The notes under the pieces were generated by a model, which worked only from the letters and a program-made list of their open reading frames with translations, searched no databases and was not told the DNA's origin. Positions 3,990 through 32,846 of a stretch of DNA of 42,807 nt are shown one piece after another. Numbering within the stretch: the first letter of the stretch is position 1; each line of letters starts with the position of its first letter. Origin of the DNA: a virus; the IMG/VR virus record IMGVR_UViG_3300046505_000019, positions 1 to 42,807 of that record. One strand, written 5' to 3'. The translations under genes and the position numbers were made by a program.

Positions 3990-4298
3990 ATGAGACCCAT
4001 AACTGACATGTCTAAAATTTCCCTGATAAGACTTAACCAAGAGCTAAAAGCGGAGAATGCGAAACTAAAGCAAGAGCAAAAGAACTTCGAGAACCATTTG
4101 AATCTCGACAATAAGCGTCTTTACGACGAACGCGACGCCCTGAAGCAGGAAAACGCGGAACTGCGTAAATTGCTCAGACAACAGCACGAGTTAATTTCGG
4201 AGGTTGTGCCGGGAGTCCATGACGATTCAAACATTCCCATGAAAGTCCCTTGTAAAGTTTGCGAAGCCCTCACCCGCCCCACGGAGGTTAAATCATGA
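3990..4298 (+). CDS. leucine-zipper-like early protein (102 aa)
   Basis: The start at ATG 3990 follows CGGAGGGAAAATAAC. A long heptad coil (LKAENAKLKQEQ, LKQENAELRKLL) occupies residues about 18-68, then a CKVCEAL tail. Coiled coil plus CxxC suggests an oligomeric, possibly metal-binding protein. It shares the QAENAEL-type coil with its upstream neighbour. Confidence 0.55.
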   Translation: MRPITDMSKISLIRLNQELKAENAKLKQEQKNFENHLNLDNKRLYDERDALKQENAELRKLLRQQHELISEVVPGVHDDSNIPMKVPCKVCEALTRPTEVKS

Positions 4299-4531
4299 AA
4301 TCCAATAGTCATCCCGTCCTATCTAAAAGCAACGGTTTTGTGTGTCTGCGTTGCGGCTCTGACAAAATGGGCTATGTCTGCAACGAATGCTCACAGATGA
4401 TTTGCTCTTGCGGAGGAATGGGCGAATGTCCGCAAGGACAGATGCAACGCGAGGAAGAAGAAGAGCGCGACAAAATGGAAGCGAGGCGGGAACAATTGCA
4501 CAGAGATATCGACAATGGCTATTACGATTAA
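4295..4531 (+). CDS. zinc-ribbon early protein (78 aa)
   Basis: ATGA-coupled. The first half has CLRCGSDKMGYVCNEC and then CSCGGMGEC, enough Cys for two zinc sites; the second half is a very acidic/basic helix (REEEEERDKMEARREQ). Probably a protein or nucleic-acid binder. Function unknown. Confidence 0.6.
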   Translation: MKSNSHPVLSKSNGFVCLRCGSDKMGYVCNECSQMICSCGGMGECPQGQMQREEEEERDKMEARREQLHRDIDNGYYD

Positions 4532-7453: not shown

Positions 7454-7619
7454 AGCCCCTCCACGAAAATAGACCCCGAACGGTAGGCGGAACCCTTGGC
7501 AGAGAATGCGCTACCGTCGGGGAAAATGGGATTTTAGGATTAGCCAAGGATTCCATATGAGTCATTGAATTACTTATATGTAACGGTGTCAATGCCCGCC
7601 GTCATACTCGGGCAGGGGG

Positions 7620-8273
7620 TCAAAACAGTACCGCCTGAGTGGGAATTTCTGTAGAAGCGTCATAGCGTTTTGTGTCTCCTTTCGGATAGTCGGGTAGAAC
7701 CTTATAGCGCAGGAGCTTGCGCATTTCCCTAACTTCTTTTTTTGATCCCAGGAAATATACATAGCGGTGTTTTGGTTTTGGTTTAACTTTCTCGATATTG
7801 TTTCGTGATGCCCATTGACTAATTGTTTCTCCAGGCTTGGTTAGATGTCTTGGATGTGTTTTTATTCCATCAATAATATATTCGGAGTCATGTGCCGTTA
7901 CTGCCCCTGTGTAGAGGAAATTTGTGGCCTGATAAATATAACCCTTGTGTCCCATTCCCTCATCAGCATAACTGACGACAATACAGGGATGAGGAAGAAG
8001 TTTTAATGCTCCTGAAACAAGAATAGAAGAAGCATTTTTTATTTTAGAATCCACCACAAGCCTATTTAATTCAATAACCTTATCAGACATCGTTGGTCCG
8101 CAGATACTTTTCTGGATCATGGGAGTAGCAGGTTGCCCAAAAGTAACAACACCCTGGGAAATAGAATTTTCAAATAGTCCAAAAGCGTATTGGACACAAG
8201 GCATCCGATGGGCGTAATGTTTCTGCATCACCCATTGATAGGCTTCTTCGTTTGGAATCTGTTGGACGTTCAC
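7620..8273 (-). CDS. mom: Mom-like DNA adenine-modification protein (217 aa)
   Basis: The sequence follows the Mu Mom family throughout: an N-terminal QKHYAHRMP and FGLFE segment, VIELNRLV (66-73), then SYADEGMGHKGYIYQATNFL (101-120) and YTG, and a C-terminal KPKHRYVYFLGSKKE with a Lys/Arg-rich tail. Mom has a GNAT-like fold and converts adenine in DNA to a methylcarbamoyl form that resists many restriction enzymes. The start is set at GTG 8273 because AAAGGTGAGG precedes it and GTGA overlaps the stop of the Cys-rich gene 8270-8458; a longer frame could begin at ATG 8321. Family assignment is firm; activity is inferred. Confidence 0.8.
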   Translation of the reverse strand: MNVQQIPNEEAYQWVMQKHYAHRMPCVQYAFGLFENSISQGVVTFGQPATPMIQKSICGPTMSDKVIELNRLVVDSKIKNASSILVSGALKLLPHPCIVVSYADEGMGHKGYIYQATNFLYTGAVTAHDSEYIIDGIKTHPRHLTKPGETISQWASRNNIEKVKPKPKHRYVYFLGSKKEVREMRKLLRYKVLPDYPKGDTKRYDASTEIPTQAVLF

Positions 8274-8458
8274 GCCCTCACCTTTCGCGGGGGGGGTTGG
8301 AACTGCAAACACGTCGGGCATGTCACCCTTCCCCAAAAGTCTGAGCAACAGTCAGGGCGCGGCGATCCTTTGTCGTAGGTTTCGCAAAGGTGACAGCCCC
8401 CTTCGTCAGGGTTTAATTTGTGGATCGTCATCCCTTCCTTGGCGGGGGTGTTTTTCAT
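8270..8458 (-). CDS. Com-like Cys-rich protein upstream of mom (62 aa)
   Basis: The start is ATG 8458 behind AAGGTGG. Six Cys are arranged as CHLC (22-25), CC (37-38) and CPTC (47-50), enough for one or two zinc sites, followed by a Pro/Arg tail encoded by a C8 run. Its stop overlaps the mom-like start as GTGA. In Mu the small zinc-finger protein Com is encoded just upstream of and overlapping mom, and activates mom translation. Position, size and Cys content fit; the sequence itself is not recognisably Com. Confidence 0.6.
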   Translation of the reverse strand: MKNTPAKEGMTIHKLNPDEGGCHLCETYDKGSPRPDCCSDFWGRVTCPTCLQFQPPPRKVRA

Positions 8459-8469
8459 GTCCACCTTAT

Positions 8470-8497
8470 ACTATATCCCTTGTTTATTTGCAAACAA
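8470..8497 (-). promoter_or_regulatory. promoter of the com-mom-like pair, overlapping an operator
   Basis: Minus-strand TTGTTT (8497-8492), 16-base spacer, TATAGT (8475-8470). The -35 is one arm of the inverted repeat TTGTTT-N6-AAACAA (8480-8497), so a bound repressor would occlude it. The plus-strand ribbon-helix-helix gene begins 30 bases away and is the natural candidate regulator. Confidence 0.5.
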
Positions 8498-8526
8498 TAT
8501 GTTAGTGTTGGCGCGGAGGTAACATT

Positions 8527-8688
8527 ATGGCAGAACCAAAAGACAAGAAGGAATACCCGATGCTGTCGGTACGAATGTCTCCACGGCTTATCGACGATAT
8601 AAACGAGTGTTCCGCAAATATGCATATGAAAGTACCGCAATTCATCCGATACGTTCTAATGGAATGGTGTTCCTCGTCGAAAAAATAA
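8527..8688 (+). CDS. ribbon-helix-helix (Arc/CopG-like) regulator (53 aa)
   Basis: Start ATG 8527 behind GGAGGTAAC. The layout is that of an RHH dimer: a short strand (PMLSVRMS, residues 11-18), helix one (PRLIDDINECSANM), a turn (HMKV) and helix two (PQFIRYVLMEWC). Such proteins bind short palindromes through the N-terminal strands. It lies between two similar operators, at 8480-8497 and 8699-8710, and diverges from the mom-like operon, so it may control both directions. No toxin partner is visible. Confidence 0.65.
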   Translation: MAEPKDKKEYPMLSVRMSPRLIDDINECSANMHMKVPQFIRYVLMEWCSSSKK

Positions 8689-9229: not shown

Positions 9230-9439
9230 ATGAACAAAATCGAAGGGTCTGTGTCTGACAGCCACATTGTGAACTTCCTGAAAAGTGCGCCGCCATCAGC
9301 TCCGATTGAACTTCGGGATTTTGACCGTGACCCGCGCTTTGCTGACAAATACCCGTCAGCGTCTCAGTTGTGGCATGAACAGCGGGAGATTGACAAGTTT
9401 ATTGATTCCGACATTGACCATTCGGAGCATGGGATATGA
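9230..9439 (+). CDS. hypothetical acidic protein (69 aa)
   Basis: Start ATG 9230 behind ACAGGAGGAAC. Polar and acidic (IELRDFDRDPRFADKYPSAS), with no motif recognised. ATGA overlap with the next gene. Confidence 0.55.
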   Translation: MNKIEGSVSDSHIVNFLKSAPPSAPIELRDFDRDPRFADKYPSASQLWHEQREIDKFIDSDIDHSEHGI

Positions 9440-9660
9440 GTAGCTACTGCCAGTTGTGCAAGCACACCCTGGCGTATGATTCCATCGAAATTGAGTGCGG
9501 GAAACATGGAAACGACCTCTTGCCGATTGACCTTTGCGAGGCGCATCTGACGCTGGCGCAGGATCACGTCGGAGTATTTGACGAGATTTATGCTGACCGT
9601 ATCGACGAGTTAAACGTCCAGCACAAGGTTCGTGGCGTTGACCTTTCGGATGTCGGATGA
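9436..9660 (+). CDS. zinc-binding-like protein (74 aa)
   Basis: ATGA-coupled at both ends. CQLCKHTL, C at residue 21 with GKHG, and CEAH make a treble-clef-like Cys/His set in the first 37 residues. Similar small phage proteins are of unknown function. Confidence 0.55.
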   Translation: MSSYCQLCKHTLAYDSIEIECGKHGNDLLPIDLCEAHLTLAQDHVGVFDEIYADRIDELNVQHKVRGVDLSDVG

Positions 9661-12469: not shown

Positions 12470-12481
12470 TATTTCGGGCGG
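12470..12481. repeat. 12-bp direct repeat flanking the tRNA (left copy)
   Basis: TATTTCGGGCGG occurs here and again at 12563-12574, immediately bracketing the tRNA gene; the left copy includes the first bases of the acceptor stem. Consistent with acquisition or duplication by recombination. Confidence 0.6.
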
Positions 12482-12559
12482 GGAAGTCTCTAATGGATTG
12501 GGAGCCGGACTGTAAATCCGGTGCGTTTACGCAAGAAGGTTCGATCCCTTCTCCCCGCA
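12478..12559 (+). tRNA. tRNA-Tyr (anticodon GTA)
   Basis: Acceptor stem GCGGGGA/TCCCCGC with discriminator A559; anticodon stem CCGGA/TCCGG around loop CTGTAAA, giving anticodon GTA (512-514); long variable arm (GCG-TTTA-CGC), the type II shape expected of bacterial tRNA-Tyr; T arm GAAGG-TTCGATC-CCTTC. The D stem TCTC/GGGA needs one G-T pair. CCA is not encoded. It is the only tRNA I found. Confidence 0.93.
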
Positions 12560-15183: not shown

Positions 15184-15420
15184 CTATTTCTCTCTCTTGT
15201 AAATCCGTTTGAGCGACTTCGTTCCGCGATGCGTACCGTTTGGCCGACGCCGGTCAAGCCTCTCCATGCCGCACCCCGTACAAAGCCGTCTCTTGGTGGC
15301 CGCACAGACAGTCCTTGCCCCACACTCGCATAGGTTCCAAGGCTTAGCTTCCCAACAGCAAGCAGGACAGGTTCCTACGCATAACATTCCTGAAATCGGG
15401 CATCTACGTTCCTTGAGCAT
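15184..15420 (-). CDS. zinc-ribbon protein (78 aa)
   Basis: The start codon follows the previous stop (TGAATG). Cys pattern CPISGMLC, CPACC, CECG, C and CTGCG, then a strongly basic tail (RLDRRRPNGTHRGTKSLKR). Looks like two small zinc ribbons with a nucleic-acid-binding tail. Function unknown. Confidence 0.55.
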   Translation of the reverse strand: MLKERRCPISGMLCVGTCPACCWEAKPWNLCECGARTVCAATKRRLCTGCGMERLDRRRPNGTHRGTKSLKRIYKREK

Positions 15421-30719: not shown

Positions 30720-31624
30720 TGGTAATCCATCACTTTTTGCTGAAAGTTGTGGAGGTCAGTTCCGTATTGCTGAGATCGAATCAAAGACTGTAGTTTGGCC
30801 TGACGATCTGCCTGAGACTTATCAGCCGTGGTGTCATCCTGATCCATCAGTGCCTGAGACTTCACGCCGTAAATCCAGAACTCGCGGAACTTCTGATAAA
30901 GAGTGGAAAGAAGCGGAGAATCCAAGTCCAGCGTCATGATGTTGACCGTATACCGCATCCGAGCGCAGTACTGAAAAACATTGTCCGGCGGAACATCAAA
31001 AATAAACTCGTCGTATGTTTCGTTACCTGTCGGAAAGAAATAGCGAGGCCGATCCGCCCCGTTGGCTCGATGGAACAGGTCGTAGTCAGCAATATGCCTC
31101 TGCTCTACAGGCCACTGGTTATCGACAATCATGTAGGTCGATGTTGCATCGGGAATGGCTTGAAAGTTGGGGTAAACCGTTAATGTCATGGTGTTATTGT
31201 TGTTGTTCACAAGTCCCGTAATCTGAGAAACAGAATTTTCCGCCGTTCCTCCCGTGATGACCAAATCCTCACCCAAAACCTGATTGATGTCATAGACCCC
31301 ATTCGGAACTGTCGATACCGTGATGGTGTTGGCTGATCCGGCAGAAACAGCCCCCGTATAAAGGCCCGTCAAAATGACCATCGTCATATCCGATGAATAG
31401 TCCGAAGGACACGAATACCGAGACTGGCCCGGAGTCAGCATCATGTAAGAAAATGTCATCAAGGGCTTGGCCTGTTTCAGTTCCTGCCAAAGCTGGTTCT
31501 TGAGTTGTTCCATGACCTCAGACTGATAGGTATTGATCTGCGCCTGAGTCGGATAAAAAATCCGAGCCTGACGAAGCCCTTCCGTGACTAAAGACGTTGC
31601 CGTCGGTATCGCCGGAGCAGACAT
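30716..31624 (-). CDS. putative head-tail connector/adaptor (302 aa)
   Basis: TGATG coupling fixes the start at 31624. Helical N-terminus (TSLVTEGLRQARIFYPTQAQ, LKNQLWQELKQAKPL), a central beta insertion, then DLFHRANGADRPRYFFPTGN and a C-terminal helical region. This is the usual order in podovirus adaptor (gp4-like) proteins that sit under the portal. Confidence 0.5.
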   Translation of the reverse strand: MSAPAIPTATSLVTEGLRQARIFYPTQAQINTYQSEVMEQLKNQLWQELKQAKPLMTFSYMMLTPGQSRYSCPSDYSSDMTMVILTGLYTGAVSAGSANTITVSTVPNGVYDINQVLGEDLVITGGTAENSVSQITGLVNNNNNTMTLTVYPNFQAIPDATSTYMIVDNQWPVEQRHIADYDLFHRANGADRPRYFFPTGNETYDEFIFDVPPDNVFQYCARMRYTVNIMTLDLDSPLLSTLYQKFREFWIYGVKSQALMDQDDTTADKSQADRQAKLQSLIRSQQYGTDLHNFQQKVMDYQ

Positions 31625-32796
31625 CAGGCTACCCCCACTTTCGACTTCATCGCCGCACATTCTTCAAAGGCATCAAGCCAGATTTTCCATGTCTTGTTCG
31701 CATCGTAATGATCCTCGACGGACTTTCGAGCGGCTTTCCCCATCTGCATCCGTGTAATGGGTTCCCGCGCCATCTTCGTGATACCGTCAAACCATCCCTG
31801 CATATTGTTTTCTGCAATGAAAATTCCGTTATCGGGTACCAAATCCATCATCTTGTCGTAGGGAGCCACAAAAGACGTGACTGCGGGAACCTCAAGAGCC
31901 CCCATTTCCAGCCATTTAATCGGGCTCTTGCATCGGTTGAACTCCATGTCAATGAGGGGGATTATCGAGAAATCGAGGTCAAGAATCGCCGCCTTGTATG
32001 GATAGGCCATGATGTCGCAGAAGTTGTGGTGTTCGATCCGTGCCGGATCAATTCCCTTCAATGTCCATTCGTAACGGCCTCCCATAATGACCAAGGTCAC
32101 GTCTGGGTTCTGATCCATGAAAGGTTTCAGGATCGGAGCGATCATCAGCCAGTCGTGGTAGTGCGTGTCGCCGCCAAGCCATCCCATGCGGATTCCGTGA
32201 TGTCCCAATAGAGGCAATTTCTCCCACATATTCACATCCACCGAGTTAGGACAAATCCGAACCGCCGGATTGATCTTTTTGAAGGCTTCCGCCAGATGCG
32301 GCCCCGTCGTCAAGACCATATCCGACATCGCAAGCCCCTCTTTGAGCATTTTCATGTTCTCGCGGTTCGTGGCAATGTCGATATTGCGCCCGTCTTTCCA
32401 AACCTCGATCATTTCCTTACGCCCAGTCTTTTCATCAAAGATTTCCTCGGAATACTCCTCCTGCCCGAAATAGCTGTACTGCTGAGTCAAGGGATTGACG
32501 CACATGAAGTTGTCATCCCATTCCGACACGATCTTTTTGCCCATCTTCTGAAATTCCTTCAAAACATTCATCAGCCGAGGCTCACAAAGCCGAGGAATGA
32601 ACAAAACATCAGCCCACGTCAGGTCATCGTTCAACTTGTCCTCCGCTTCTTGAGACGCAAACCAGTCGAAGTCGTTTCCCTTGTGGAAAAGACGCACTTC
32701 ACCAGCTTTATGGGCGCGAATCTGGATCAGCGGCTGAGTACACCTGTACCAGTCGCACCCTGACTTTGACTTCTCGAATCCGAAGACCTTGACCAT
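31624..32796 (-). CDS. GT-B glycosyltransferase in the structural operon (390 aa)
   Basis: ATG 32796 (MVKVFGFEKSKSGCDWYR) matches the N-terminus of GT-B enzymes; an upstream GTG at 32832 would lie inside the terminator hairpin. The second Rossmann domain reads IRMGWLGGDTHYHDWLMIAP, VTLVIMGGRYEW, DFSIIPLIDMEFNRCKSPIK, then WLEMGALEVPAVTS, the nucleotide-sugar-binding end of GT1/GT4 family transferases. No Shine-Dalgarno precedes the ATG. It may glycosylate a virion protein, the host surface or DNA; the substrate cannot be told. Confidence 0.75.
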   Translation of the reverse strand: MVKVFGFEKSKSGCDWYRCTQPLIQIRAHKAGEVRLFHKGNDFDWFASQEAEDKLNDDLTWADVLFIPRLCEPRLMNVLKEFQKMGKKIVSEWDDNFMCVNPLTQQYSYFGQEEYSEEIFDEKTGRKEMIEVWKDGRNIDIATNRENMKMLKEGLAMSDMVLTTGPHLAEAFKKINPAVRICPNSVDVNMWEKLPLLGHHGIRMGWLGGDTHYHDWLMIAPILKPFMDQNPDVTLVIMGGRYEWTLKGIDPARIEHHNFCDIMAYPYKAAILDLDFSIIPLIDMEFNRCKSPIKWLEMGALEVPAVTSFVAPYDKMMDLVPDNGIFIAENNMQGWFDGITKMAREPITRMQMGKAARKSVEDHYDANKTWKIWLDAFEECAAMKSKVGVA

Positions 32797-32846
32797 AAAA
32801 AAAGGGATGCCAAAAATGGTGGAAGCGGCCACCGCTCTGGCATCCC
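32797..32846 (-). terminator. intrinsic terminator/attenuator between capsid and glycosyltransferase genes
   Basis: On the minus strand GGGATGCCA (32846-32838) pairs with TGGCATCCC (32812-32804), with an inner AGCGG/CCGCT hairpin, followed by seven T residues (32803-32797). The glycosyltransferase ATG follows the T run at once. It should end most capsid-driven transcripts here. Confidence 0.75.

Follow-up and report, generated by a model that had tools for sequence, protein, structure and literature searches.

A Mom family gene preceded by a small cysteine-rich gene not recognisable as com in a podovirus-type genome

The mom gene of phage Mu is tightly controlled. Its product modifies adenines in the phage genome, which protects it from restriction (PMC6483171; PMC7824862), and the gene lies directly behind com, with an annotated overlap of 80 nt that places the mom start inside com. 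Com belongs to the Pfam family Zn_ribbon_Com (PF10122), and GAGNNCC is its SELEX motif (PMC6483171). Mom genes have also been described in podoviruses, namely the Bacillus Claudivirus phages (PMC9965433). Here we analysed a stretch of 42,807 nucleotides, positions 1 to 42,807 of the IMG/VR virus record IMGVR_UViG_3300046505_000019 (hereafter the window), for which a preliminary description had proposed a com-mom-like pair of hypermodification genes. It had also called the genome podovirus-type, in agreement with the major capsid protein and the portal, which match Pfam SU10 families.

The two genes lie on the minus strand and were correctly described regarding their coordinates, their overlap and the six cysteines. 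The upstream gene (8270-8458, ATG start, with AAGGTGG just 5' of it) encodes a protein of 62 amino acids whose cysteines are arranged as CHLC, CC and CPTC, that is, with two CxxC pairs 21 residues apart. The downstream gene (7620-8273, GTG start) encodes 217 amino acids, and its start shares the letters GTGA (8270-8273) with the stop of the upstream gene, which is an ordinary geometry of stop-start coupling. A Shine-Dalgarno-like AAAGGTGAGG stands before it at 8275-8286 (minus strand), outside any significant hairpin. The GTG start at 8273 agrees with the start position of many relatives, in which the KHY motif is equally far from the start; translation might alternatively begin at an in-frame ATG (8321), which is served by a separate Shine-Dalgarno-like AAGGG, and the product would then have 233 amino acids. 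On the other side of the pair a rightward ORF of 53 amino acids (8527-8688, plus strand) looks ribbon-helix-helix-like by eye only and had no Pfam match. The interval between this ORF and the leftward cysteine-rich gene (8459-8526) may be a divergent promoter or control region; a scan for sigma-70 promoters 5' of the gene pair on the same strand, this interval included, gave no match.

The Mom-like assignment of the 217-aa protein was borne out. It matched the Pfam Mom family (PF25680) with an E value of 2.2e-40 and 139 bits, the curated cut-off being 27.1, and the alignment joined residues 2-197 to positions 3-201 of the 202 in the profile. Furthermore, it matched PHROG 1384, 'Mom-like DNA modification protein' (E 1.3e-55), and its best match to a structure by sequence was Mu Mom (PDB 8bv8, E 5.6e-11). 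The AlphaFold2 model, built from 44 sequences of the window and other Mom loci, reached a pLDDT of 89, and when the PDB was searched with it 8bv8 came first (E 9e-12, TM 0.64-0.68), whereas other acetyltransferases appeared at 3e-4 or worse, seven orders of magnitude weaker; the protein thus does not fall into a different GNAT subgroup. The residues H19, Y20, E68, R71, N80, S83, S101, D104, Y114, Q115 and N118 are invariant among the 44 Mom sequences and are kept in the 217-aa protein. One of them, S83, identical in 44/44 aligned proteins, aligns with S124 of Mu Mom, for which we take S124A as the inactive mutant from the title of PDB 8bv8, with catalytic details also drawn from secondary citations. 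The protein is, as judged from sequence, invariant residues and predicted fold, a genuine member of the GNAT-fold Mom family, so that the hypermodification of phage DNA at adenine N6 is its expected function.

Nevertheless, the window Mom is not a close copy of the Mu enzyme. The motifs quoted in the preliminary description as Mu Mom landmarks are present in the 217-aa protein, but they are typical of the wider Mom family and not of Mu Mom itself, which reads ELNRMW, SFADERCGRAGVVYQASNF and YRYIRFLN at these places. Although both proteins share the whole-length family match, the predicted fold and the invariant residues, they are only 32% identical in the alignment, and the tree sets the window Mom and 41 others apart from Mu Mom and two Moms of Enterobacteriaceae with a support of 100/100. 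Other close relatives are Moms without Com (PHROG 1384; phages of Proteus, Listeria and Bacillus and many IMG/VR contigs), with 38-55% identity and a similar length and start, whose genes often show a short overlap with an unrelated upstream gene, as in the window. Mom relatives are abundant, since tblastn found them in 285 annotated phage records and the IMG/VR scan in at least 596 confirmed stretches. Relatives of Mu Com were found in only 24 phage records, which leaves the majority of Mom genes without a recognisable Com. The window mom is a known and common kind of gene, one more Com-less Mom in a large phage family.

Regarding the 62-aa protein, the preliminary description had held it not recognisably Com, and the searches agreed. 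Pfam, PHROGs, NCBIfam, the phage records (tblastn) and the IMG/VR scan gave no significant match for it, nor did any collection searched hold a relative, and BLASTP aligned only six of its residues with Mu Com. Against Zn_ribbon_Com there was nothing up to an E value of 10, while the positive controls, Mu Com and the Com of locus L111, scored 2.7e-9 and 8.7e-8. On the basis of these searches we rejected Com identity for the protein. A Pfam search for Com in the window's own record was also empty, but so were the control genomes, and this result therefore carries no weight. A single-sequence AlphaFold model had a pLDDT of 48, which is too poor to judge one zinc finger. Actually, the likeness to Mu Com consists of the 62 residues, the two CxxC pairs, the shared CPxC and the place upstream of mom; the differences are the missing profile match, six cysteines where Mu Com has a CCCC finger, a first cysteine that comes only after 21 residues and an overlap with mom of 4 nt. 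A true Com inherited together with mom from a Mu-like ancestor and then greatly diverged would account for the length, the position and CPxC, but it would not be expected with a profile result so far from that of Mu Com, with the short overlap or with a Mom outside the Mu-type clade, and we consider this origin barely credible. The 62-aa protein is probably a small zinc-ribbon protein and would bind zinc.

The region around the mom start was examined at the RNA level too. The predicted folds were weaker than those of shuffled sequences (z +1.20 and +0.60), although this is a weak test because the Mu region was equally unremarkable by z-score. The Com motif GAGNNCC does not occur at the mom start of the window, which is again a weak test, as Mu itself carries GAGCATC and not an exact GAGNNCC. 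An Rfam search gave no match. An inhibitory hairpin with a run of eight C opposite the Shine-Dalgarno site of mom had been seen by eye and was discarded, as folding did not support it.

We then have the genes that precede mom elsewhere. Of the 92 usable Mom loci, 77 have a gene whose end lies close to the start of mom, and in 64 of these it overlaps mom; in none is it a small cysteine-rich gene, which sets the window apart from the other Com-less Mom loci. After thinning near-identical loci 43 remained, of which 31 had such a gene and again none a cysteine-rich one. This census covered short overlaps, so a true Com with a longer overlap, such as that of L111, lies outside it. By eye, the upstream genes are diverse and include replication proteins, methyltransferases, small membrane proteins and others.

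The two genes of the window also differ in base composition. The mom gene has a GC of 0.413, which places it in the bottom 0.7% of 650-base windows, and a GC3 of 0.344, whereas the cysteine-rich gene has 0.566 and 0.667, like its neighbours (Fisher p 1e-5 for the GC3 difference). This sharp difference makes mom look like the later arrival, and it speaks against a cysteine-rich gene inherited together with mom as a diverged Com. However, the two genes differ in Mu as well, where com is the richer in AT (GC 0.418 vs 0.493 for mom), and therefore a gap in composition cannot by itself exclude a working pair; it is weighed here with the other evidence. No convincing flanking repeats that would mark an insertion of mom were found.

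Small cysteine-rich, zinc-ribbon-like ORFs occur at other places in the window as well (2001-2144, 4295-4531 and 9436-9660 on the plus strand, 15184-15420 on the minus strand), and none of them resembles the mom neighbour by eye. Small cysteine-rich ORFs are also found in mom-less relatives (L021, 1844-2023; L114, 1651-2013).

All this bears on whether the 62-aa protein might activate the translation of mom, that is, play the role of Com without being Com, after an independent evolution. The gene lies directly upstream of mom and overlaps it, its product has the size and the two CxxC pairs, and in one fold the Shine-Dalgarno site of mom can pair partly with the upstream C run. On the other hand, neither the folding nor the motif search at the mom start, both weak tests, points to such control, the pair does not recur in the 92 other loci, the two genes differ in composition and the genome has small cysteine-rich ORFs elsewhere. 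We therefore consider an activator role very improbable, and we give as little weight to the evolutionary form of the same idea, in which a zinc-ribbon protein unrelated to Com was co-opted where it stood to switch a mom gene acquired not long before, so that a control pair convergent with com-mom arose. Thus, the com-mom pair of the preliminary description is not supported, given the missed Com profile, the empty census, the different compositions and the other cysteine-rich ORFs.

As to the surroundings, mom apparently lies within an operon of replication genes, unlike Mu mom, which is found at the genome end. Leftward it is followed by a gene of 186 amino acids and a DUF3987 primase/helicase-like gene, and a Sak4-like gene lies on the other side of the locus in the opposite direction. 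Elsewhere in the window there are a tRNA-Tyr gene (12478-12559, plus strand) and, in the structural gene block, an ORF of 402 amino acids (31624-32832, minus strand) that matches the phage glycosyltransferase family PHROG 7162 (E 2.6e-36). Seven terminase-related contigs, several of which are fragments, had neither mom nor the cysteine-rich gene. In one of these seven, G002/L021, the 186-aa gene (61% identity) and the primase gene (82%) are conserved, and in the mom-less L114 and L115 the 186-aa gene is kept (56%); in all of these the upstream genes are different. The mom segment therefore appears to be variable cargo placed before a conserved block.

The conserved 186-aa gene is preceded by a long hairpin in its leader, at 7455-7535 of the window (minus strand), 2650-2728 of L021 and 1979-2061 of L114, the last being identical in L115. 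In the two cases tested it was stronger than shuffled sequences (z -2.8 and -2.7). Its overall shape is common to the three distinct phages while the letters of the stem differ, with TTTCCCCG and C-AGGG as conserved parts. The automatic alignment of the three hairpins contained no compensatory pairs, but it misregistered the 3' arm, and the covariation is seen by eye only. The hairpin has the appearance of a conserved RNA element that acts in cis.

A recently acquired mom may also be a mere passenger, inactive or unexpressed in this phage. Its atypical composition would fit, as would its absence from the seven related contigs, possibly fragments; nevertheless, the ORF is intact, has a Shine-Dalgarno-like site and keeps all the family-invariant residues, so we regard an idle gene as unlikely.

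The reading that we favour, and that we hold as a whole to be quite probable, is that of a functional, acquired mom beside an unrelated native gene. An SU10-like podovirus would have gained mom horizontally, as the second gene of a leftward and probably early operon formed by the cysteine-rich gene, mom, the 186-aa gene and the primase/helicase-like gene. Translation would proceed from mom's own Shine-Dalgarno site and may be helped by stop-start coupling to the preceding gene. The enzyme would then give adenines in the phage genome the Mom modification and thereby block the restriction enzymes of the host. The 62-aa protein would be a native small zinc-ribbon with an unrelated function, a neighbour of mom by chance.

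Thus, a location like that of com is by itself weak evidence, and in the branch of the window Mom the gene seems to follow whatever gene it landed behind. For the question of how the Com-less Mom enzymes are controlled, which the tight control of their Mu relative raises, the window locus is not special.
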